Below, in pieces: positions 1 through 22,544 of a stretch of DNA of 22,544 bases (the stretch's first letter is position 1; every line of letters begins with the position of its first letter). The notes under the pieces were generated by a model. The model saw nothing but the letters and a program-made list of their open reading frames with translations. It was not told the DNA's origin and made no database searches. Position numbers and translations under genes: made by a program. The stretch spans positions 1 through 22,544 of IMG/VR virus record IMGVR_UViG_3300009180_000234. The stretch is one strand, 5' to 3'. The DNA comes from a virus.

Positions 1-303
1 AATAGTCTTAGGTGTACCATCTTTATTAGTTCCAAATCCAGCATCAGTAGAAAATACCTTAAGGTGTTTTGTGTCCCTAATAGAAGCAATTACCGCTTGG
101 CTATTTGGATATGGATTTTCGCTTGTGAAGTTTAGTTCAGCAGTGTAACCATGCCTTTGAAGTTCATGCATCTGCTCAATAGTTTCTTTAATGAACTGTT
201 GATATGCTTTCTTGACCAATGGATTGTTTGGATTGTGAGGCATTTTATCGTACTCATATCCAATCTTAAATGATTTATCTGGATTTAGTTTGATAATAAA
301 CTT
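1..303 (-). other. Start of a phage polyvalent-protein domain, cut by the window edge
   Basis: Residues about 2000-2100. The pattern NPNNPLVKKAYQQFIKET, then PYPNSQAVIASIRD (2063-2076), then HLKVFSTDAGFG (2079-2090) resembles a domain I recall from large phage virion proteins, in which it continues into a conserved HD..GH segment. That continuation lies outside the window. The call is from memory, without a search. Confidence 0.4.
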
Positions 304-3300
304 ACCATCACCAGCAGTAATACCTTTAGAAGATTTAAAACCTCTAGAGATTTGTACGGTGTGAGGATTGTTTCTTCCAAATGCACCTTCTGGTAAAGGC
401 TCAACTTGGTCGGACGATTGTCTCATGTATTGACCACCCTCTTGATATCCAGAATTTCTAGGTACAGGTTTCTTATCTAATGTTGTATCAATAACAGCGA
501 TTTGTTTATCGCTTGAAAGAGGAATAAACATTGCGTTTCCAACATCATTTTTTCCAGCAATACTGTCAGTAAGAATAAGACCATCGTGACCTAGGTCTAT
601 AGCAGACTGAGCAACATTTCCAATGGTTTCAAAATCTAAGTTTTGAATTGATATGCTATTAGCCGCACCTTTTTCTGCATTTTTAGTTTTAAGTTCCCAG
701 TTATGAAGAACTAAAGGATTTCTAAATGACAGTAAACTTCTTGTTTGACCAACAGAATCTCTCATTACCATAGCCGCCCTCATGGTTGGAGATTCGGCTG
801 GCATTATTGATTGATTGTAAGAGTCGCTTGTAAATCCAAAGAACAACGGTGCCTTACCGCCTTTAATTAAAGCAACTGAACCAACATCTTTACCGTATTG
901 TTTTGATAAAAGAACAAACCTATTTGTAGTTCCATTAACAGCAGTAACAACGGTTGGTTTGCTTGACTCAAATGCACTAACATATGTTTCTGCGTTTCCA
1001 CCAGTTGCAAGGTGTTCTTCAAGTGTATGTTTAACTACAACAGGATTTTCACCAGTGCTTCTTACAAAACGCTTAACTGATTCAGCAAGGAATATATCTC
1101 CTTTTTCAACTGCGTCTGCATAGTTAGACTTTAAGAAACTCTTTTCTTTTGGATTAGATGCACCAATTTCATCAGCCGCTTGGTATAAAGCAACTCTCTT
1201 TAATGGTTTAAACATATCCATCTTTCCAAGTTCTCTTGCAAGTTTGCTTGGGTCATTTGAATCTTCCGCTAATTTCTTAACATCTAATGGTAATCCCTTA
1301 GTATGCTGATAAAAACTAGCAGGGTTTTCCATATCAATATCAATAGCCGCATCTGCCGCTTGATAAAATCTTCCTTGTTCAATTTTGTTTCTTACAATTG
1401 GGTCGGTGCTTCTATCAAGAACTTCTGTGTTGCCAAAAATTTTATCTCTAATAGCAATAGGTCTTAATTTTTTATCTGCAATTTGTGCTGAGTTTTCTGT
1501 TGCTCCGTAGAACCTAAGTCTTTCAGCCATTTCAGATTGTAACAATGTTCCAATTCCTTTGCCTTCATACTCTGGAACTACCTTCATATATCCACCTCTT
1601 GACTGTTTTATTCTTGTTGGATTGTCAAAAAATACAGCGTTGTATGTTCCGACAATTTTATTTTCAAAGTTACCACCAATACCTTCTCGTTTTTTAACAA
1701 CTAGTGTAAGTTCTTTTGCTATTTTACCAGTACCAGTTTTAACATCTTTTAATTGATGTTCAACAGTCAATCCTTGGTTTGCGTAATAATCTTTGTTTTC
1801 GTAATATTGCCTTCCAATAAATGAATTAGAAAGTTGGTCTGGAGTATAAGTTCTGTTTCCAGTATATGCTCTAGCCCTTCCTTGATAACTCATTAAGTTT
1901 TCTGGATTAACAATATCTCTTTCACCAGAAAGAACCTTTTTAACTTTAACCATTTCAGCCTCACCTCTGTCTGCTGACTGGTACATCATTCCTTTTCCAT
2001 TTGCATCTGTGTATAAATCTGTTGTACCCTCTAATGGAGTTGGAATTTGACCTCTACGGTAAACCTTTTCATTCATTCTAACTTGGCTACCTTCACCCTC
2101 TCTGAGAACAGCGTTTGATAATAAATCAAGTTTAACATCCATCCAAGGATGGTTAATCTTTCCTAAAACATTTCGCATTTGACTGTCATGCCAATCAGCC
2201 TCATATGTTGAAAATATTCCAAGAATTCCTTTATCTGCATTTCCTTTAAGTTCTACAGTTGGAACTGCACCAATAGCAGCAACTACATATCTTCTTCTTG
2301 TTCTAGCACCTTCATCATCTCCAAAGAAGTGAGTAGCAGGTATAGCACTTGACACGCTATAGTCATCAATGGTTTTGTAAATATGACTCATGAACTCATT
2401 CATGTGAGTATATTGGTCACGGATTTCTGCGTTTTCTTGCCAAAGTATTTGACCTCTTCTTGTTAAACAATCAATGTCATATCCTTTTGCGTTGAATGTA
2501 AAGTGTGGACTCTTATAGTTTACAGTTGGATTTTTTGGATTTCTTAATGAAAGTCTAAGTTCAAAATTATACGGAACAAAGTTCATTGTTCTTGCATCAA
2601 ACTCATCTTCCCTAGCCCTGCTAAGTGTTATATCTGTATCTGGTTGTACTTGTTCTATTCCCCAGTAATCAGCCCTAACAACATTTGCTTTTGTCTGACC
2701 ACCATCAGCAACAATAGGTGCAAGCAATGCCAAGTTTCTTCTTTGTTGCTTAGTAATAAATCTTTCAATGATAGCAAAAGCCTTACCATTTGGGATGCCT
2801 CTCATTACAATCGTTTTACCTTCTTCAAAAGCCTTCTTCATTTCATAGCCTAGTTTGCCACTTGGAGCAGTTCTTGGTCTTCCACGGCTACCTCTTCCGT
2901 AATCTACAGGTCTTCCGTAAGCATCTTTTGCTTGTTTCCAAGTGTTGTTTTTCTTTGCCGTAACTACTCCTGCTTTAACAATATCGTCAAGACCAACACC
3001 AATATCTGAGAAATCTGGGCTTTGATATAAGAACCCTTTGGTTCTTCCAATGGTATCAATAGATTCTTGTTCTGCCGTAGATTGCTCTTTTACTGCTGCA
3101 TCAAATCCAGCCGTATCTCCCTTGTCCTCTGTAATATAAAAATCAATTCCTTCAGCAACAGTAGGGTCTAATTCAATTGCTTCAGCAAGTTGCTTCATGC
3201 CAACAGTAGCCAACTCATGTCTTTCTTTGTGGTACTCTTCTCTTGACATTAATCTGTATGTTCCATCAGACTTCTTTTTAAGCCTTTCTTCATAACCGTA

Positions 3301-6300
3301 AGCCTGTGCATGTGATAATAATTCTGCTGAAGATAGTTTACTTACTTTAACAGGTGTTCTACCATTGTTCTTCATTCCTTTTTCGTTATAGATTCTGATT
3401 AAATCTGTAAACGATTTTTCAATAGCAGGGTCAAATTTAAATCTGCCGCCATTTTTTGATTTAGTAAACCATTCTGCAAACGATTGTTTTGTTCTTACAT
3501 CAGCACCCATGCTTGTAGCCTCTCTTAATGCATGGTTTGCAAACACATCTTTTACTGATTCAAAAATTGTTCTTGCCATTCCTATGTCTCCACCTTTTGC
3601 AACATAATCAAATGGCTTTCCACTTTCCCAACCAATAAACATTGCGTCACCAAGTTCTTCAATAAATCCTTGAAACTTTTCTAATGTTTCTGGCTTCATT
3701 ACACCAGTAGTTTCATATTCAGAAATAGCGAGTTTCCAGTTAGCACCTTCATTCCCACGATTTCCTCCACCCATCTTATTGTAAAGTTCTGTCATAAACT
3801 GAACAGCACCTTTTCTGTCTCTAAATGCCCAACCTTCTTTGTGTTCGTCACCAAGAAGCCAGTTTTTTACAACGCTATTAACCTCTGTTCCAATTTCAGC
3901 CTTTCTTCTAACTGAGTTCATTTGATGGAACATTTCAGAAATAATTGCACTTGGTGCTGTCTTTGCTGGAATGTATTCAATTGATTGTTCTGGAGATACT
4001 AATCTTTCAACAGGTGGCATTGGACCTTGCATTGGTGCAGCCTTTTCTCCTTTAGGTTGTAATACTCTTCTAGATGCTCTAGAACCTTTTTTCATTGGAA
4101 TACCATAATCACCAACACCATTTGAATCATCTTTACTTGCAATTTTTGCAGGTTCAGTTTGTGGAGTTGCTGGTCTTTCACCTTCAACCCTTTGATATAC
4201 TGCAGGTTTAAGAACTTTCTTTTTCTTTACTAATGTACCATCTGCATTTCGTTCCATTCTGATAGCATCCATATTAATAATAATATGATGTTTTCCGCTA
4301 CTCTTATCTTTCCAAGACATTACTGGACCTTCAATTGCTTTTCCATTTGCATCAAGAGTTACAAATGCACCATTCCAAGCATTACTTCCTAATATTGGTT
4401 TTCCTGTTTTTTCATCAACAACAATTTTTCCAGTTGGTGTTGTAGCAGAATTAATTTGGTCTTGTAATACTCTTCCAAGGTCTGTTAAAACTTTTACACC
4501 GTTTTCTGTTCTAACAAAGTTAGGGTCGCTCTGTAAAGCACCAACCATATCTTCAGTTGAAAGAATAGATAAAACTAAATTCTTAGACTTCTCAGCCATC
4601 ATTAACTGACCTAATCTTCTAACAGCCTCATTCTCTCCATGGTCTTCATTAATCATATCAATTAACTTTTCCATGTTAGCGGCTTTAAGTACATGACCTT
4701 GTTCTTTTAAATAATCAGTATGATTTTTAAACTCATTAATCATATTGTATTTTGCAAACTTGCCAGAAATTGTTCCGTGTGCTAATGCATAATTATGACC
4801 AGCAGCACCTAAAAATAGTCCAGTACCAATACCACCAGCAGCACCTTCTTTACCGCCAGCAACATAACCAATAGCACCACCATATAAAGAACCATGTACC
4901 ATTACTTTACCAAGGTCTTGCATGTATCCACCAATAACACTGCTTCCAACAATAGCATTACCAATAGCACCAGCAACAGGTCTTCCTCCTGCTTTTGCCT
5001 GTTTAGCAAGTAATTCAGCAGAACCTACTAATCCTAAATTATCAACATTTTTTCCAATAGCCTCAAAGATTTCACCAGCAAAACCAAGTGCTTTTGCACC
5101 AGTATAAATACCAGTAATTGCAGCACCATATGGAATACTAAACAATGAATAAACACCAGCAGCACCCAGAACAGCAGAGTTTAATGATGTTGGACCTTTA
5201 TTTACCTTAGACCTAGAAAACTTAGTGTTTCCTTTTGCGTCTATTGCAGTTCTAGTTCCAAGAACATCACCAGTCATTTTTTCAATTTTAGTATATAGTT
5301 TTTCAAGAGGTTTTGTAACAGCATCTGATGTTTTTCTCATTACACTACCTGCTGAATTTAATACGCTTGCTTTCCAAGTTGTTTGAGTAGCCCTAGCAGC
5401 AACACCATGTGCTAACGCTTGACCAGCATGACCAGACTTTAATGCGGCTACACCAGCAGCAGTTGCAACTTTTGCAGTTGCTTTTGTTGCTGAAGATGCA
5501 CCAAGTGAAAAATATAATGTAGGGTCTAAGATATAAGAAGACGCAGTAGCAAGACCTTTATTAACACCAATAAAATCATCAATTTGTTCACCCATTGCAC
5601 GACCAAGAAGTTTTTCATAGGTTGCTCTTTCTGGCATTAACAAGTTAGACTGACCAGAAATAATTCTTTCTGATTGGTCGTTCCACGCAGCCAAGTCAAA
5701 GAAGTCTTGATATAACTGTCTTTTATCACCAGTTGGATTAATGATAAGTCTATATAGTGGTGAGTCTGGATGATTAGCCGCCATTACAGCAAGACCACCT
5801 AAATCTCTAGTTCCTCTTGCAAAGCCCTCTAAAAGAGATGCACCATATGCTACACCATATCCAACAACAGGATTAGCAGTAGCAATAGAAAGACCTGTAC
5901 CAAGTGCTAACTTTTTCCAATCAGTAGCAGCATCCCATACACCACCAACAACATCTTTTGCCGCTTGACCAAATCCGTCAGCAACAGCACCCATAAAATT
6001 AAAGTGCTGTTTGTCCATCCAATCTCTATAAGCATTATGCTCATCAAAAGAAATATTGTCTGGACTTAATGCTATTCCACTTTCTCTTAAATGATTAATT
6101 TTTAAAGCAACTTCTTCACCAGTAAGAGGTGCAGATAAAATACTATCAATATCTGCTTCACCTAATTCAGTTAAGTCTTTTGGAGCAGCAACTTGATTAA
6201 CCCTAGAATTTAAAGCAAGTTCGTAAGTGTTAGGTGCATATTTTCCTTTATTTCCAACAACCTCTGGTTGTGAAAATCCGTCTGTATTGTCAGATTCCAT
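1..6300 (-). CDS. Giant polyvalent internal virion protein, 3' end beyond window
   Basis: Partial gene: ATG at 6300, open for 2100 codons to the left edge with no stop. Residues about 131-160, 375-405 and 441-500 are hydrophobic or glycine/alanine-zipper stretches, suited to membrane contact during ejection. Residues 621-900 hold a possible degenerate metallopeptidase (SEMFH at 788-792, EE at 881-882). A GNAT motif (PEYEGKGIG, 1576-1584) and an ART-PolyVal-like core (GHDGLIL 1904-1910, FIPLSSDKQI 1925-1934) follow. From about 2000 comes the start of a domain I recall from large phage virion proteins. Five [YR]Q[SA]xD motifs lie between the domains. The start overlaps the preceding TAA by one base (TAATG), implying coupled translation. 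As the last and largest of three ejection-type genes it resembles T7 gp16 or N4 gp50 in position and size, but I see no transglycosylase or polymerase motifs. I infer that it is a virion-delivered multi-enzyme protein; the activities are unproven. Confidence 0.85.
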   Translation of the reverse strand, partial: MESDNTDGFSQPEVVGNKGKYAPNTYELALNSRVNQVAAPKDLTELGEADIDSILSAPLTGEEVALKINHLRESGIALSPDNISFDEHNAYRDWMDKQHFNFMGAVADGFGQAAKDVVGGVWDAATDWKKLALGTGLSIATANPVVGYGVAYGASLLEGFARGTRDLGGLAVMAANHPDSPLYRLIINPTGDKRQLYQDFFDLAAWNDQSERIISGQSNLLMPERATYEKLLGRAMGEQIDDFIGVNKGLATASSYILDPTLYFSLGASSATKATAKVATAAGVAALKSGHAGQALAHGVAARATQTTWKASVLNSAGSVMRKTSDAVTKPLEKLYTKIEKMTGDVLGTRTAIDAKGNTKFSRSKVNKGPTSLNSAVLGAAGVYSLFSIPYGAAITGIYTGAKALGFAGEIFEAIGKNVDNLGLVGSAELLAKQAKAGGRPVAGAIGNAIVGSSVIGGYMQDLGKVMVHGSLYGGAIGYVAGGKEGAAGGIGTGLFLGAAGHNYALAHGTISGKFAKYNMINEFKNHTDYLKEQGHVLKAANMEKLIDMINEDHGENEAVRRLGQLMMAEKSKNLVLSILSTEDMVGALQSDPNFVRTENGVKVLTDLGRVLQDQINSATTPTGKIVVDEKTGKPILGSNAWNGAFVTLDANGKAIEGPVMSWKDKSSGKHHIIINMDAIRMERNADGTLVKKKKVLKPAVYQRVEGERPATPQTEPAKIASKDDSNGVGDYGIPMKKGSRASRRVLQPKGEKAAPMQGPMPPVERLVSPEQSIEYIPAKTAPSAIISEMFHQMNSVRRKAEIGTEVNSVVKNWLLGDEHKEGWAFRDRKGAVQFMTELYNKMGGGNRGNEGANWKLAISEYETTGVMKPETLEKFQGFIEELGDAMFIGWESGKPFDYVAKGGDIGMARTIFESVKDVFANHALREATSMGADVRTKQSFAEWFTKSKNGGRFKFDPAIEKSFTDLIRIYNEKGMKNNGRTPVKVSKLSSAELLSHAQAYGYEERLKKKSDGTYRLMSREEYHKERHELATVGMKQLAEAIELDPTVAEGIDFYITEDKGDTAGFDAAVKEQSTAEQESIDTIGRTKGFLYQSPDFSDIGVGLDDIVKAGVVTAKKNNTWKQAKDAYGRPVDYGRGSRGRPRTAPSGKLGYEMKKAFEEGKTIVMRGIPNGKAFAIIERFITKQQRRNLALLAPIVADGGQTKANVVRADYWGIEQVQPDTDITLSRAREDEFDARTMNFVPYNFELRLSLRNPKNPTVNYKSPHFTFNAKGYDIDCLTRRGQILWQENAEIRDQYTHMNEFMSHIYKTIDDYSVSSAIPATHFFGDDEGARTRRRYVVAAIGAVPTVELKGNADKGILGIFSTYEADWHDSQMRNVLGKINHPWMDVKLDLLSNAVLREGEGSQVRMNEKVYRRGQIPTPLEGTTDLYTDANGKGMMYQSADRGEAEMVKVKKVLSGERDIVNPENLMSYQGRARAYTGNRTYTPDQLSNSFIGRQYYENKDYYANQGLTVEHQLKDVKTGTGKIAKELTLVVKKREGIGGNFENKIVGTYNAVFFDNPTRIKQSRGGYMKVVPEYEGKGIGTLLQSEMAERLRFYGATENSAQIADKKLRPIAIRDKIFGNTEVLDRSTDPIVRNKIEQGRFYQAADAAIDIDMENPASFYQHTKGLPLDVKKLAEDSNDPSKLARELGKMDMFKPLKRVALYQAADEIGASNPKEKSFLKSNYADAVEKGDIFLAESVKRFVRSTGENPVVVKHTLEEHLATGGNAETYVSAFESSKPTVVTAVNGTTNRFVLLSKQYGKDVGSVALIKGGKAPLFFGFTSDSYNQSIMPAESPTMRAAMVMRDSVGQTRSLLSFRNPLVLHNWELKTKNAEKGAANSISIQNLDFETIGNVAQSAIDLGHDGLILTDSIAGKNDVGNAMFIPLSSDKQIAVIDTTLDKKPVPRNSGYQEGGQYMRQSSDQVEPLPEGAFGRNNPHTVQISRGFKSSKGITAGDGKFIIKLNPDKSFKIGYEYDKMPHNPNNPLVKKAYQQFIKETIEQMHELQRHGYTAELNFTSENPYPNSQAVIASIRDTKHLKVFSTDAGFGTNKDGTPKTI
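475..948 (-). other. ART-PolyVal-like ADP-ribosyltransferase domain in the giant protein
   Basis: Residues about 1785-1942. Strand LLSFRNPLVL (1856-1865) resembles the 'vyLnikNPL' strand. GHDGLILTD (1904-1912) resembles 'GyDGiiv', and MFIPLSSDKQIAVID (1924-1938) resembles the 'yvvFdpnQIKs' end of ART-PolyVal and related phage ADP-ribosyltransferase-like domains. I could not place the N-terminal catalytic His/Tyr ('YHGT') with confidence, so the domain may be divergent or inactive. It is flanked by YQAAD (1706) and RQSSD (1960). Confidence 0.5.
1411..1863 (-). other. GNAT acetyltransferase-like domain in the giant protein
   Basis: Residues about 1480-1630. A strand KIVGTYNAVF (about 1548-1557) precedes YMKVVPEYEGKGIGTLL (1571-1587), which matches GNAT motif A (V-x-PEY-[RQ]-G-K-G-[IV]-G-x-x-L), the acetyl-CoA pyrophosphate-binding loop. 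The usual Arg/Gln is Glu1579 here. RPIAIRDKIFGNTE further on resembles the C-terminal 'N-x-x-A-x-x-x-Y-x-x-x-GF' region. The domain is flanked by YQSAD (1440) and YQAAD (1646). The substrate is unknown. Confidence 0.7.
3600..4290 (-). other. Possible degenerate metallopeptidase domain in the giant protein
   Basis: A beta-strand-like HHIIINMDAI (671-680) is followed by a helix containing SEMFHQM (788-794) and a downstream acidic helix EELGDAMF (881-888). The spacing resembles the zincin-like domain of large phage virion proteins, where HExxH and a later Glu bind zinc. Here the first His of HExxH is Ser, so zinc binding is doubtful. The fold assignment is tentative. Confidence 0.3.
4798..5910 (-). 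other. Hydrophobic and glycine-zipper N-terminal region of the giant protein
   Basis: Residues about 131-160 (LALGTGLSIATANPVVGYGV and onward), 375-405 and 441-500 are rich in Gly, Ala, Val and Ile with GxxxG spacing and few charges. Such segments are common in phage proteins that insert into the cell envelope during DNA ejection. Whether they cross a membrane cannot be decided from sequence alone. Confidence 0.5.
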
Positions 6301-8699
6301 TATTGAGTATTACCATTAAGGTAAGGCATAGCCGCTTGTCGAGCCTGTTGTGGAGAATATCCTCTTGCTATAAATGCAGAGTATGCACTCTTAAACCCAG
6401 ACATTGACTGGTCCCTAACACTACCTAATGTAAATTTGAATCCATAAGCAGTTCCTTGGTCTTTAAGTGAGCCAGTAAGACGCTCCTTAAATCCCTTAAG
6501 TGAACCAAGAACTTGGTCACGGAATATGATGTTTCTTAATGAAGTTGGGTCTGCAATAATCTTGTCAATTCTTAATTGGTCTTGTTCGGACCAAGCACCA
6601 GAACCACCGACTTCAGTTCGTTTAGCCGCTTGAATCGAGTTTTGAATTTGTTGTGCATAACCTGTCAATTCCGCAGGAAGCATCTTGTCTAATGCTGACG
6701 AATTTTCAGCAATGTTAATAAGCCTGTCAACATCTTGCAACGCTCTTGTGTTTGTTAATAACTCAGTTCTGACCTTATTAGCCATATTGATGTCATTAAC
6801 ATTAATTTCACCACTAAATGTAAATCCATTAGCAGTAAGTCCGTTTAAGTCTTTTTGTTTCCCAAGATTAGCCGCTTCTCTTAATCTTTGTTGGTCTGGA
6901 ATTGACATCAAATTTTGACCATCAGCACCCTTGTTTTCAACAAATTTTTCAAGTCCACCAATTTTCATGTATGAATACCCATTGCCCATATCCATAGAAA
7001 CAGGCATTACAATACCCTGAGAGGCTGCATAAGCCTGTTTTGTAAATGAAGGTGGTATACGACCCTTGGTTGTCATTAAATAGTTTCTAGCAAGTTCATA
7101 TTGGTCTGTAACCTGTTCGTCCATTGTTTTCTGAAGTTCAACGGTAACCTCTTCTTCTCTGCGTACATACTCGTCTTTTTCTCTTTCAACATAATCAAGT
7201 GACTTACCAGACCAAGTATACGCTTCATCTGATTTTGATTTAATAATTTTAGATTGAGTTGCAGATTTTTGACTTTTTAACTTGGCAATTCTTTCTTCAA
7301 TGTCATCAATTTTTGTTTGTCTCTGTTTAGTAGCATTAGATAACAATTCTGGATTAACACTATTTTCACTTCTTACATCATTTATTGCTTTTCTTATAAT
7401 TTTTTGTTCAGCAGAAGTAATATTGTCTCCAAATAATGTTGTTGTTATACCCTCAAACATTGCAGTTAAGTTTAAACCATATTGAGAAACCAAGTCATTG
7501 TTAAGACCTTTAACTAATTGTCTTGCTAAATCTGGTGTTATATCTTTGGCTTTCCAAAGACCAAGCATTTTTTGATGTCTAATTGCAGATTTAATTGCAT
7601 ATTCATTTACAAGTGTGTTAGTTATTCCTCTTCCACCAGCAACTGAGGCAGATGCAACGGCACCAACAGCATTTGGTCCTGTATCATTATCACCACCTTC
7701 TTCTAATGCTTTTTTTCTGGCTTCAAGACTTTTAATCTCTTTATCTGCATCAGACATTGAGTTTACAGCCTGTTTGTTTTGAGCGTTTCCTCTATCAGTT
7801 CTAAACTGAGCAAGACCTTTGCTCATAAACTCTCCATATTTTAATCCCTCTCTTGTTGCAATTTCTTTATTTTTATTAAATTGTGCAATATCTTCTGGGG
7901 TATCTAAAGAAACAACATCTGGAGTAATATAAGGACTTACATATTCTTGGAAGTCTGGATTTGCAATTGTTTGATATCCCTCAAAATTTTCATCATCTTC
8001 AGCAAGACCATTTTTTGAAACCTCAAGTTCTCTCTTAGATTTAGATGTTTTCTTGTAAATTTTTCTAGCAATTCTGTCTTGAATTTTAGCAATTGCTTCT
8101 TTGTCATTTTTTGATTCTGCTACATCTAACTCACTAAAATCATTAGAAAACTCTTGAGTGTCTAATTGAAGAGTTTCTTCTCCAATTTTAACAGCCCTTA
8201 CTTTCTTTTGAGTTCCTGTTTTTGTTGTATTAAGTTCACCTGCTCGTCTTGCTCTGTCAATTTCAACCTGTGCTGCTTCAATATCCTCTTGGTCTTGCAT
8301 TGCTTTCTTGATTTGCTTGACCTTAAGACGCTCTAAATCTAAAGCATTGCGTTGTTGTTCTACTTTTGTTCCAGTATCATAACCTTGAAGACCAGCAATC
8401 ATTTGTGTTCTAGAAAGGTTTGCAACACCACCTTCTTTGTTTACTGAATTAAATAGGTCGTGAACATATTTAGGTGCTGATGCATCTGGTTTACCGTTTT
8501 CGTCTACACCGTAAGATGATAAGATGGCACCTGTTTGTGCTTGCAGTTGTGACATTTCATCTCTGGCGGCATTAAACTTGTTAATGGTATCAGACATGAT
8601 TTTACCTTGGTTATCCTGTTGGATAGCCAGTTCTTTCATATTACCTGCTACATTAAAAGAGTTAGTAATGTCTGTTTGATTATTTCCAAATATAGGCAT
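6300..8699 (-). CDS. Large coiled-coil internal virion (ejection) protein
   Basis: 799 residues, ATG at 8699, TAA overlapping the giant gene's start by one base. The protein is mostly helical and highly charged. Coiled-coil-like stretches occur around residues 115-155 (VEQQRNALDLERLKVKQIKK and onward), 315-340 and 465-540. I see no signal peptide, no transmembrane segment and no catalytic motif. It sits between a small glycine-zipper protein and the giant protein, the middle place of a three-gene ejection set such as T7 gp14/15/16 or P22 gp7/20/16. A long helical protein here would fit a channel or core component released with the DNA. The role is inferred from position, length and composition; the family is not recognised. 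The leader has no Shine-Dalgarno sequence. Confidence 0.8.
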   Translation of the reverse strand: MPIFGNNQTDITNSFNVAGNMKELAIQQDNQGKIMSDTINKFNAARDEMSQLQAQTGAILSSYGVDENGKPDASAPKYVHDLFNSVNKEGGVANLSRTQMIAGLQGYDTGTKVEQQRNALDLERLKVKQIKKAMQDQEDIEAAQVEIDRARRAGELNTTKTGTQKKVRAVKIGEETLQLDTQEFSNDFSELDVAESKNDKEAIAKIQDRIARKIYKKTSKSKRELEVSKNGLAEDDENFEGYQTIANPDFQEYVSPYITPDVVSLDTPEDIAQFNKNKEIATREGLKYGEFMSKGLAQFRTDRGNAQNKQAVNSMSDADKEIKSLEARKKALEEGGDNDTGPNAVGAVASASVAGGRGITNTLVNEYAIKSAIRHQKMLGLWKAKDITPDLARQLVKGLNNDLVSQYGLNLTAMFEGITTTLFGDNITSAEQKIIRKAINDVRSENSVNPELLSNATKQRQTKIDDIEERIAKLKSQKSATQSKIIKSKSDEAYTWSGKSLDYVEREKDEYVRREEEVTVELQKTMDEQVTDQYELARNYLMTTKGRIPPSFTKQAYAASQGIVMPVSMDMGNGYSYMKIGGLEKFVENKGADGQNLMSIPDQQRLREAANLGKQKDLNGLTANGFTFSGEINVNDINMANKVRTELLTNTRALQDVDRLINIAENSSALDKMLPAELTGYAQQIQNSIQAAKRTEVGGSGAWSEQDQLRIDKIIADPTSLRNIIFRDQVLGSLKGFKERLTGSLKDQGTAYGFKFTLGSVRDQSMSGFKSAYSAFIARGYSPQQARQAAMPYLNGNTQ

Positions 8700-8702
8700 A
8701 AA

Positions 8703-9836
8703 TTAAAAAGGACCACCTAGGTTCATGTTTTGATACCTATTAGCACCAAGAAGGTCACCAGCATATTGATTTTGAATACCTGCTCCACTCATTAAAACAT
8801 TACCTGTTCCAGCAGTAGGTGTGCTACCAAATAGATTTTTAAATCCACCCTGTATTCCCATCATGCCAAGTTGACCAACTGTACTTAAAAGTTGATTTTG
8901 TGCTTGCATTTTACTAGCCGCAATAGCCATACCTTCTTGATATTTCATACCTTGTGCTTGAATACCAGCATTAGATTCTGGATTAAAGATTTGTGGTTGA
9001 TACTGACCTAACATAGCGTTAGATTCAGCCATAAACCTTCCACCATTACCAGAAGCACCAATAGCAGTATTAGCCAACCCAAGAGAAGCCTCTTGAAGTT
9101 TTGCTTCATTAGCAAGTGCTACATTTGCAAATTGTCTGTTTCTATCTTGTCTTTGTTGACCAAGACCGTAGTTAGAAAGAACACCAGCCGCTACACCTTG
9201 TCTTCCAGTAAGACCACGCATAGCCATTTGTGAGTTAGCCGCTTGGTTAGCCTGTCTTGTTTCGTCATATCCAAGACCAGTTCCCTCATAAAGACCTTGA
9301 ATAGCCTGTCTATTTATTTCATCCTGCATCAATGCCATAGTAGGATTGATTGCAGTGTATCTTGCTTGATTAGAAAGACTACCAAGTGTATTTAAATAAC
9401 CAGTTCCAGAGCGTTGTTGTAGTCCTTGTTGAGCAGCGTTAGCCTCTTCAACCATTTGAAGATAACCTTGATTTCCCATGCCACCGTATAATTGAGAATT
9501 AAGGGTAGTCTCTTGTAGACCTTGATACATAGGTCTGTATTGACCTTCAAGATTAAGTAAATTGCCTTGAATTTGTTGTTGTGAATTTAAATTTCTTGCC
9601 ATAATCTGCTCGTATGTTGGAGCAGCAGGAGCCTTTGTTTTTTTACTTCCAAACAGTCCACCAAATATACCACCAATAACAGCACCAATTGGACCTCCAA
9701 CTGCAAATCCAGCAGCAGCACCAGACAATCCACCACTAACAGCACCAGTAGTGCCTCCACCAATAGATACAGTACCAGAACCTTTATCTTGATAGTTACC
9801 AAGAGTGTTAGAATAATTTGAAGTTATTTGTGCCAT
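8703..9836 (-). CDS. Glycine-zipper internal virion protein
   Basis: 377 residues, ATG at 9836. Residues about 23-66 form a Gly/Ala-rich hydrophobic stretch with repeated GG and GxxxG (GGLSGAAAGFAVGGPIGAVI, then GGIFGGLFG), ended by a basic cluster SKKTK. This is the usual look of a membrane-inserting glycine zipper in phage ejection proteins. The rest is helical and rich in Gln, Ala, Asn and Leu (LNSQQQIQGNLLNLEGQY, QAANSQMAMRGLTGRQG) with almost no acidic clusters. It precedes the 799-residue gene by 3 bp and follows the fibre-like gene by 10 bp. By position and composition it should be the smallest of three ejected proteins, like T7 gp14 or P22 gp7. I recognise the type, not a named family. 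Confidence 0.8.
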   Translation of the reverse strand: MAQITSNYSNTLGNYQDKGSGTVSIGGGTTGAVSGGLSGAAAGFAVGGPIGAVIGGIFGGLFGSKKTKAPAAPTYEQIMARNLNSQQQIQGNLLNLEGQYRPMYQGLQETTLNSQLYGGMGNQGYLQMVEEANAAQQGLQQRSGTGYLNTLGSLSNQARYTAINPTMALMQDEINRQAIQGLYEGTGLGYDETRQANQAANSQMAMRGLTGRQGVAAGVLSNYGLGQQRQDRNRQFANVALANEAKLQEASLGLANTAIGASGNGGRFMAESNAMLGQYQPQIFNPESNAGIQAQGMKYQEGMAIAASKMQAQNQLLSTVGQLGMMGIQGGFKNLFGSTPTAGTGNVLMSGAGIQNQYAGDLLGANRYQNMNLGGPF

Positions 9837-20090: not shown

Positions 20091-21716
20091 TTAATAAGAA
20101 TGAGATTGGTTTCTTGCTTTAAATGTATTGCCGCCCTCGTATGACGGCTCCATGATTGTTAAATATCGTAAGCAGTCAATTGGGTCTTTGCAAGCACCCT
20201 TTTCTCCATCTTGGTTTGTCCATTCTCTTAATGCGTAAATTAAGTTTTTGCAACTTTCAGAAACATAAAGTCTAGGTTGATTAATTGGAGATTGCGGTTC
20301 TGATGCATTATAAAAAAGCAAATCATTAATAATTGCAACACCTTGTTCAATGTGAACACCAGAAGCAGGTGTAAAATACATTGGTTTTTCGCCTTGGTCT
20401 AACAATTCAATTAAACTTGTGCCTCCTTCTTTGCCAACAGACTGTGTTGCACCTGCTCTTGGGTCAATATATCGTTCTGCAATCAGTTCTTCGCCTTCAA
20501 GTTCACGAATTAACTCTTTATACTCGTCAATTCCTCTTCCAGCACCGTTTTTTTGCCCAGAACCCATCTTTCCGTCCGCTTTTTCGGCTGGTAATGCCCA
20601 TTCTCCATTGGAAATGTCTGGAAATTCACGATAAACATACAAATTGCCGTCTTTTGCTGCTCGCAGCCATAACATAAACCAATTTCTTGCTCCAGCAGGG
20701 TCGCAAACCATAAAATTTGTTCCATCTACAGGTATTTTCTCGTCTGGAAGTATATTGACATCCGTAAATGATGGGAATTGTGAGCCAGCAGTGTTTTCTG
20801 CATAACCATAAGCACGAATTTTTATTTCGTTTGAGGTTTTTCCTTCAAGCGTAGCCCTAAGTTGGTCAAAAGGATTATAAGGATTTAATTGCGAATGGAA
20901 CCAAACAACTCCAGCACCAGAGTTCATCGAGTCTGCCAGATAGGGCATATGACCCCTTGGGCAGCCAGCCACGATGACTTTTGATTGGTCGAGCAGTTCT
21001 GCCTTCAAACTTTTTTTAATAGAGCATCCTGCGACATAATCTTTAACAACTTGGCTATATCCAAGAACAGGTGTAAAAGTTATCAAAAGTTTTCCTCGTC
21101 TGGTAATAGCACGATAGCGTAAAGTTTCAACCCAGTCTAATGGAACCAACTCATCGCACCAGATAAGGTCTACTTCACCACCCTCAATAACCTTTTTATC
21201 CTGTGCGTAATTCATAAAGAAGCACTGTGAGCGATTCGGAAGAATGAATGTGTTATCTGAAAATCCGTTTTTCTGAGAATACGAAATATTTGTAATCTTA
21301 GTTTTTCTAGCATTCTTAAGTTCTGGTGGCATATACTTCCACAGAACATTTTGTTGCATTTGAATGCTTGACGAACTGGTTGTGTGCAAACACCATACTC
21401 TTGCGTCTGGCTTATTAACTAAAGTTTGTATTACTCGCTTGGCAGCCCATTCGGTTTTACCAGCACGATTACCACCCAAAATAAGTAATTCATTTTTCTT
21501 CTTAAGCATTTCGTCTGCGTCTAGCCAGTGGTTAGGCTCATACCCATGACGATATGGGTCCATTTTTTCTGCAATAATTTTATCTTCTCTTAGTTGGAGA
21601 AGTTGTGCAACTAACTCTGGACCATTATTATCTACTAAAACTTTTAACTCTTCAACAGTCGGTGCTTTGATGACTGGATGATAGGTTGGTTCATAACCTT
21701 CTATTTTTTCGCTCAT
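20091..21716 (-). CDS. terL: Terminase large subunit
   Basis: 541 residues, ATG at 21716 overlapping the upstream TGA (ATGA). The N-terminal ATPase has Walker A GGNRAGKT (81-88), Walker B VDLIWCDE (182-189) and a coupling motif LLITFTP (210-216). The C-terminal RNase H-like nuclease has candidate metal-binding Asp at 339 (FMVCDPAGARNWFMLW), 418 (RYIDPRAGAT) and 511 or 514 (CKDPIDCLRYL). It cuts concatemeric DNA and drives it into the procapsid through the portal encoded next. Length is normal, and all motors and nuclease residues appear present. No small terminase is recognised in the window; it may be to the right. The leader has a short AAGG, the only hint of a Shine-Dalgarno site in the window. 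Confidence 0.95.
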   Translation of the reverse strand: MSEKIEGYEPTYHPVIKAPTVEELKVLVDNNGPELVAQLLQLREDKIIAEKMDPYRHGYEPNHWLDADEMLKKKNELLILGGNRAGKTEWAAKRVIQTLVNKPDARVWCLHTTSSSSIQMQQNVLWKYMPPELKNARKTKITNISYSQKNGFSDNTFILPNRSQCFFMNYAQDKKVIEGGEVDLIWCDELVPLDWVETLRYRAITRRGKLLITFTPVLGYSQVVKDYVAGCSIKKSLKAELLDQSKVIVAGCPRGHMPYLADSMNSGAGVVWFHSQLNPYNPFDQLRATLEGKTSNEIKIRAYGYAENTAGSQFPSFTDVNILPDEKIPVDGTNFMVCDPAGARNWFMLWLRAAKDGNLYVYREFPDISNGEWALPAEKADGKMGSGQKNGAGRGIDEYKELIRELEGEELIAERYIDPRAGATQSVGKEGGTSLIELLDQGEKPMYFTPASGVHIEQGVAIINDLLFYNASEPQSPINQPRLYVSESCKNLIYALREWTNQDGEKGACKDPIDCLRYLTIMEPSYEGGNTFKARNQSHSY

Positions 21717-22544
21717 ACCTTGTCTTTAAAGTATGCACTAATATGGTCATCTTTAAAACCAGTAGAAGACATGGATTCATTTACTCTGTGAATGTTTGCT
21801 TTCTTTTCTTCTTCAATTCTTTGTTGTTTGATTCTATCATCTTTTTCTTTCCATCTTTCATATTCAGCAGTTTGATATGCATTTATATCTAAAGACGGTG
21901 TTTGTGAATATGGATTATAATTTGTGTAACTAGGGTGTGCTTCTGGATTACCCATGGTTGTTGGAGTAAATATAGCAGCAGAAGTAGGTAGGCTTACTCT
22001 TCCAAGTCCACCTGCAACATATTCAGTTGCAGCACCAGCCGCAGCATATGCTCTTTGTGTTCCAGCACGATATGCAGCAGCAGCAGCAGGACCAGCAGCA
22101 GCAGCAGTAACTTCTGCAGCAGTTAATCCTTTATCAACATAATTAAGTCCACCCATTTGAAAACCAACAGACTTAGCAACATCTGTTGCAAATTTAGTAG
22201 GACTAAAATTAATTGCTCCAGCAGCAATAGAAAGTGCTGGTTTTCCTAAATATGCTCTAGTCCCATCATAAATTGATTTAATAATTTTATTTGCTGAACT
22301 AGCACCAATAACTTCAGCCCTTTGTAACAATGCAACACCAGCAGCCTTTGCAACAGTCACTTTTGCTTTATCAATTGTTTTATTTTCAATTACATTAGCA
22401 CCTTCTTGAATTACTTGTGGCAATTGACGGTACGCACTAGCAAGGTCTACAAATGGTTGTCCTTGTGCAACACCATTAGGGTTTCCAATGTTGTTGTGGT
22501 ACTGTACTTGGCTATTAACATTAAAGTTGTTAAGAACAGCAGGG
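21713..22544 (-). CDS. Ala-rich protein upstream of the terminase, 5' end beyond window
   Basis: Partial gene: the frame is open from the right edge through 276 codons to TGA at 21713-21715. A TTG at 22423 could act as a start, but the frame continues upstream with protein-like sequence (NNIGNPNGVAQGQPFVDLAS), so the true start is outside. Visible parts are hydrophobic or helical (KAKVTVAKAAGVALLQRAEV), a middle with a poly-Ala run (VTAAAAGPAAAAAYRAGTQR), a Pro/Asn/Tyr-rich linker and a charged helix at the end (YERWKEKDDRIKQQRIEEEK). Composition resembles an internal or minor virion protein more than a small terminase. The stop overlaps the terminase start, so the two are probably co-translated. 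No family is recognised. Confidence 0.7.
   Translation of the reverse strand, partial: PAVLNNFNVNSQVQYHNNIGNPNGVAQGQPFVDLASAYRQLPQVIQEGANVIENKTIDKAKVTVAKAAGVALLQRAEVIGASSANKIIKSIYDGTRAYLGKPALSIAAGAINFSPTKFATDVAKSVGFQMGGLNYVDKGLTAAEVTAAAAGPAAAAAYRAGTQRAYAAAGAATEYVAGGLGRVSLPTSAAIFTPTTMGNPEAHPSYTNYNPYSQTPSLDINAYQTAEYERWKEKDDRIKQQRIEEEKKANIHRVNESMSSTGFKDDHISAYFKDKV
22074..22107. repeat. GCA/TGC trinucleotide tract coding for poly-Ala
   Basis: Two short (GCA)n runs separated by GGACCA encode the alanine run on the minus strand. Such tracts change length easily by slippage, and changes in multiples of three would keep the frame. Confidence 0.7.

Follow-up and report, generated by a model that had tools for sequence, protein, structure and literature searches.

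A predicted giant polyvalent ejection protein with a conserved head, an altered zincin-like domain and a repeated junction motif in an undescribed virus group

The long open frame at the left end of the window (an entire linear record of IMG/VR, 22,544 bases long) is likely to encode the N-terminal half of a polyvalent ejection protein, which would enter the host by ejection and deliver effectors there. The frame comprises 2,100 codons from position 6300 to 1 on the minus strand with zero stops and runs off the end of the record, which bears out the single open frame leaving the window that an earlier note had described from the sequence. The internal stop or assembly error considered there can be set aside; no stop is present, and an error is excluded because six close homologues, at about 36–44% identity, have uninterrupted frames. 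Beyond that note, the analysis adds an altered zincin-like domain and a junction motif, and it identifies the last block of the frame (Table 1).

The late module of the window contains terminase, portal, a scaffold-like gene, an SU10-type capsid protein (Pfam E = 3.8e-41), tail genes and a fibre-like gene, followed by three ejection-type genes. The giant is the last of the three, as had been proposed, and the same order is found in relatives: wherever the flanks can be seen in the close and middle clades, the two ejection-type genes and the giant follow one another in the late gene region. The ATG of the giant overlaps the stop codon of the upstream 799-residue gene in the sequence TAATG. A partial, Ala/Gly-rich gene upstream of terminase (21713–22543, minus strand) gave no family match above chance. 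No near nucleotide relative of the window was found among 50,697 phage records.

Table 1 Features of the giant and its neighbours, with positions in the window unless a record is given
Feature	Position (nt)	Strand	Residues	Remarks
Giant polyvalent ejection-type protein	1..6300	-	1-2100	N-terminal 2,100 aa of an estimated 3,900-4,400
Second ejection-type gene	6300..8699	-	799 aa	Stop overlaps start of giant
First ejection-type gene	8703..9836	-	377 aa	Strong Gly-zipper at 27-63
Head	4621..6300	-	1-560	Kept in whole group; Gly-zipper 470-513, hydrophobic 371-398
Altered zincin-like domain	3586..4383	-	~640-905	HIIIN strand 672-676, SEMFH 788-792, Glu 881/882
Conserved block	1990..3018	-	1095-1437	Present in close and distant giants
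GNAT-type acetyltransferase-like domain	1363..1800	-	1501-1646	Motif A EGKGIG at 1579-1584
ART-PolyVal-derived domain	445..1014	-	1763-1952	VNGT 1788-1791 where relatives have THGT
phrog_3170 domain, first half	1..420	-	1961-2100	Cut by record end
Junction motif 1	3013..3033	-	1090-1096	FLYQSPD
Junction motif 2	1969..1989	-	1438-1444	MMYQSAD
Junction motif 3	1351..1371	-	1644-1650	RFYQAAD
Junction motif 4	1171..1191	-	1704-1710	ALYQAAD
Junction motif 5	409..429	-	1958-1964	Variant, YMRQSSD
(S/T)DNHG(N/D) gene	L119:16759-17529	-		
(S/T)DNHG(N/D) gene	L117:17405-18175	-		
(S/T)DNHG(N/D) gene	L136:9782-10552	+		
(S/T)DNHG(N/D) gene	L133:2113-2868	-		

A search of viral contigs with the single giant protein as query gave no match, and homologues surfaced only when an alignment was used as the query. 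The window belongs to an undescribed virus group with at least 551 terminase relatives in IMG/VR, found with a terminase alignment, in which the largest gene encodes a head-plus-array protein of up to 5,632 residues. From the 80 terminase relatives that were kept, 41 records were examined and 18 carry a giant homologue, the records without one saying little because many of them are fragments. Complete giants measure 3,974–4,389 residues in the close clade and about 3,500–3,800 in the middle clade; those of deep relatives extend from 1,574 to 5,632 residues, the full range across the group. In two of the deep relatives the giant is a single open frame of 5,615 (L129:592-17439, minus strand) or 5,632 residues (L130:413-17311, minus strand), occupying ~17 kb of records of 37–38 kb and thus very large for the size of the record. 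A gene with an (S/T)DNHG(N/D) motif near its start lies not far from the giant in several relatives, and the copy in relative G006 matches Pfam Metallophos.

As judged from the alignments, the architecture is that of a constant head with lineage-specific modules after residue 1440. Residues 1–600 and 780–1440 are common to the close and middle clades, and the first of these parts reaches the deep relatives too; the segments between 1445 and 1952 are confined to the close clade among the sequences compared. The hydrophobic glycine-zipper stretches noticed previously near the N-terminus are kept in distant relatives, the GGEEG-GIGTG zipper being retained down to about 20% identity, and the head is probably the membrane-inserting part of the giant.

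We read residues ~640–905 as a derivative of a zincin-like metallopeptidase with a changed metal site, the first metal-binding His being gone. Six deep relatives have an HExxH motif, near residues 500–606 or, in the truncated G024, 283; five of them were aligned, and there the motif occupies the same column as SEMFH of the window. Glu 881/882 lies in the region of the third ligand, and a downstream Glu-rich motif of two deep-domain sequences, G018 and G021 (EELG/EEIG), aligns with EELG in the window. Close and middle giants with a recognisable motif have Gly, Glu or Ala at the first position of the column, or Ser in the window; all giants showing the motif retain the Glu and the second His. 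When an HMM was built from the deep domain, it matched middle-clade giants at the corresponding place (E = 1.1e-6 to 1.7e-4), and hhalign gave 75% (E = 2.5e-5). The middle clade in turn matches this block of the window with E values of about 1e-9 to 1e-14. The window itself scores weakly with the deep-domain HMM (E = 0.15), so that its link to the deep domain runs through the middle clade. The assignment of the deep domain as a zincin rests on the pattern of HExxH and downstream Glu; no Pfam or PDB match was found for the deep HExxH domain, and profile searches of the PDB with the zincin-like and A6 blocks gave nothing usable. Since SEMFH stands in the place of HExxH, the domain of the window is classed no further than as a derivative of a zincin-like domain.

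The GNAT motif A reported in the earlier note is present, and GNAT ancestry of the surrounding segment is backed by Pfam matches to Acetyltransf_7 (E = 2.6e-4) and Acetyltransf_1 (E = 3.2e-3), both below the curated cut-offs. The top two matches of the segment in a PDB profile search are acetyltransferases, although weak ones (E = 0.12–0.16). Compared with the (R/Q)xxGx(G/A) pattern, the window has Glu in the first position, and relatives have RNRGWG or RQRGYG. An AF2 model of residues 1085–2100 had no Foldseek match and was of too low confidence (pLDDT 47.5) to speak for or against the GNAT and ART folds.

The ART-PolyVal-like core of the same note stands as ancestry. The C-terminal half of the segment matches a Helicobacter prophage protein (L199) in tblastn (E = 5e-3, 43.5% over 46 residues), hhalign of the segment with this intermediate gave 96.7% (E = 3.6e-10), and PF18760 (ART-PolyVal) in turn matches the intermediate with 80 bits. 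Homology to ART-PolyVal was found in this way, via L199, for the C-terminal half only; direct profile comparison of the segment with other ART-PolyVal sequences gave no significant match and none of the members of the segment had a Pfam ART match. A member of the giant family, G021, has Pfam ART-PolyVal above the cut-off. The window has VNGT where six close relatives have THGT, the His of HG(T/S) being lost. This His of the HGT-type motif is needed in ARTs of the His-Tyr-Glu type, because of which the window copy may be inactive; it is not filed as an active ART, and the suggested ADP-ribosylation is doubtful for it. A survey of ART-PolyVal in 398 genomes of one phylum found three carriers, too few for a test of the motif.

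The last of the further domain-like blocks mentioned earlier is now identified as the phrog_3170 domain. It is complete in relatives, where FRxVHDxFGH, GEENAW and TRGQNSW are near-invariant, and no Pfam match was seen at its place in the proteins scanned. A model built from 24 sequences was confident (pLDDT 83.6, pTM 0.83); against the PDB it had no Foldseek match and a VIA-align Z of at most 4.0 over 46 residues, results that fall short of showing a new fold. BFVD proteins that contain the domain include some named polyvalent, NAT or ART-PolyVal-like; in mycobacteriophages the domain stands alone as a gene (gp107 in Sebata), with matches in ~187 Mycobacterium phage records. These occurrences draw attention to a recurring unnamed domain, one that also forms a gene by itself in phages of Mycobacterium smegmatis, a host with easy genetics. 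Sebata gp106 and gp107 (L200:6990-10086) have a similar starting stretch, (S/T)AREQxEMLxPWxREA, possibly a targeting signal common to both. In the close clade a second conserved module, LNAFDTVLPSMYDKFGFEAVAR, follows the phrog_3170 domain (giants of L138, L139, L140 and L142, residues ~2410–2690); it is also found in two MAG giants, L152 and L160, and by eye resembles the C-terminal half of a GNAT.

Five copies of a short motif around an aromatic-Gln pair, one of them a variant, lie at junctions between the segments. The pattern (L/M/F)(F/Y)Q.{1,2}(D/E) occurs 4 times in the window, where 0.16 copies are expected, and 3–7 times in each close giant, where the expectation is 0.2–0.4, a test that is biased because the pattern came from the window itself; the relatives also share ancestry. 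Conservation gives a less biased comparison. Each of the five junction Gln is conserved in at least six of the seven sequences, as against 5 of the 37 other Gln after residue 1085 (hypergeometric P = 3e-4), and the residues flanking the junction Gln are mostly less conserved than the Gln. In relatives the next module, past the end of the window and outside the region in which the motif was discovered, is bordered by two more copies. The core of the motif also occurs as DPLFQ near the N-terminus in five of the seven giants, away from the module junctions. By these counts the motif is a feature of the close clade only: 28 other giants showed no enrichment, and as a general property of polyvalent proteins it was rejected, 91 copies being observed and 91 expected in 97 other proteins bearing phrog_3170, in which the motif did not cluster at the start of that domain either.

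The reading that we prefer, of an ejected protein that delivers effectors, would proceed as follows. The giant would be packaged in the head of the virion together with the two upstream ejection proteins and would leave it along with the DNA. Its conserved head (residues ~1–600, with the Gly-zipper) would insert in the host envelope as part of a DNA conduit, and the C-terminal modules would reach the cytoplasm ahead of phage transcription. There the GNAT-like, phrog_3170 and further downstream modules may modify host targets, the ART-derived module of the window virus being probably altered or inactive. We infer packaging, ejection, topology and all of the module activities; the support for an ejection protein comes from the genes, as synteny and the Gly-zipper. 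Against the reading count the GNAT matches below cut-off, the ART segment's insignificant direct comparisons and missing Pfam hits, the poor AF2 model and the lack of a match to the ejection genes of the nearest annotated phage, C75C1. The earlier proposal that ejection protein and effectors are combined in a single polypeptide is supported in part, by the head, the effector-like modules and the synteny, but not as a novelty, since polyvalent proteins are a published theme.

The junction motif most likely provides sites of cleavage or binding for a factor acting in trans. A polyprotein, in which a phage or host protease acts in trans at (L/M/F)(Y/F)Q-x-x-D/E junctions and frees the modules after the change of the zincin-like metal site, is a tentative possibility. 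It draws on the enrichment, on the conservation of the junction Gln and on the copies beyond the window, and synonymous codon changes among the copies argue for selection on the protein; DNA recombination joints are disfavoured by the same variation. Against it stand the choice of the pattern after the window had been viewed and the counts in the other giants and phrog_3170-bearing proteins, and no protease signature emerged in the other ORFs searched in the records of relatives: patterns for trypsin- or papain-like proteases gave nothing convincing, Pfam found no peptidase in the G006 ORFs scanned, and a Peptidase_M19 match there (E = 0.044) was judged to be chance. Low pLDDT at the junction sites stems from the poor model. 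It is rather doubtful that in this lineage the injected giant has given up the usual use of its own zincin-like domain and is divided instead by a trans protease at the aromatic-Gln junctions, with effectors released during or after entry. The aligned loss of the zincin His and the junction motif make any division of polyvalent proteins testable.

The same conservation data also suit a docking motif, a short sequence repeated in flexible linkers to bind portal, scaffold, host chaperone or target while the chain stays whole. The DPLFQ copies away from the junctions favour docking of this kind, and another polyvalent protein, the N4 virion RNAP, is packaged without being processed (PMC5512222); several copies do lie at junctions, which fits processing at least equally well, and we consider docking somewhat unlikely. 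A very large internal virion or ejection protein of purely structural role, whose enzyme-like modules are inactive remnants serving as bulk or folding units, appears improbable. It would account for the ART His lost in the window, the absence of the first zincin His throughout the close and middle clades and the Glu in the usual Gln/Arg place of GNAT motif A. However, the ART His is kept in close relatives, the zincin-like Glu and second His have persisted in all giants with the motif, and the catalytic-looking phrog_3170 residues are near-invariant across very distant phages.

P22 gp7/gp20/gp16 and T7 gp14/15/16 are ejection proteins from three consecutive genes, an arrangement that the window shares; the giant has no sequence match found with these proteins, is far larger and carries effector-like modules. 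The nearest annotated relative, C75C1 (OQ984151), is similar at 27–31% in terminase (31%), portal (27%), capsid (27%) and tail, and BLAST of its ejection genes gave no sequence match. The giants of Mel-JY33, Pag-Yong1 and ctQRb9 (2,772–4,012 residues) share the phrog_3170 domain and, where seen, a late position after tail or lysozyme genes, and some have LPD22, LPD38 or ART-PolyVal; in contrast, no similarity to them was found in residues 1–1950 of the window giant. The giant of Helicobacter prophage BK070148 (3,735 residues) has an ART-PolyVal detectably similar to the ART segment of the window but differs in carrying PBECR1/2 and LPD3 and a canonical YHGS.

Published polyvalent proteins (Iyer et al. 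2017, PMC5512222) include ones with GNAT next to ART, with zincin domains and with links to virion genes. The window giant likewise joins several unrelated domains in one chain, by homology GNAT-like, ART-derived, zincin-derived and phrog_3170, with the first of these next to the second, and it is linked to virion genes as the last late structural gene, here and in relatives. We therefore place it, from its sequence and gene order, within this known kind, as a polyvalent protein of an undescribed lineage for which delivery is predicted. Its own features in comparison with the published proteins are a head family without Pfam match, the altered zincin-like site, the repeated junction motif and the phrog_3170 domain.
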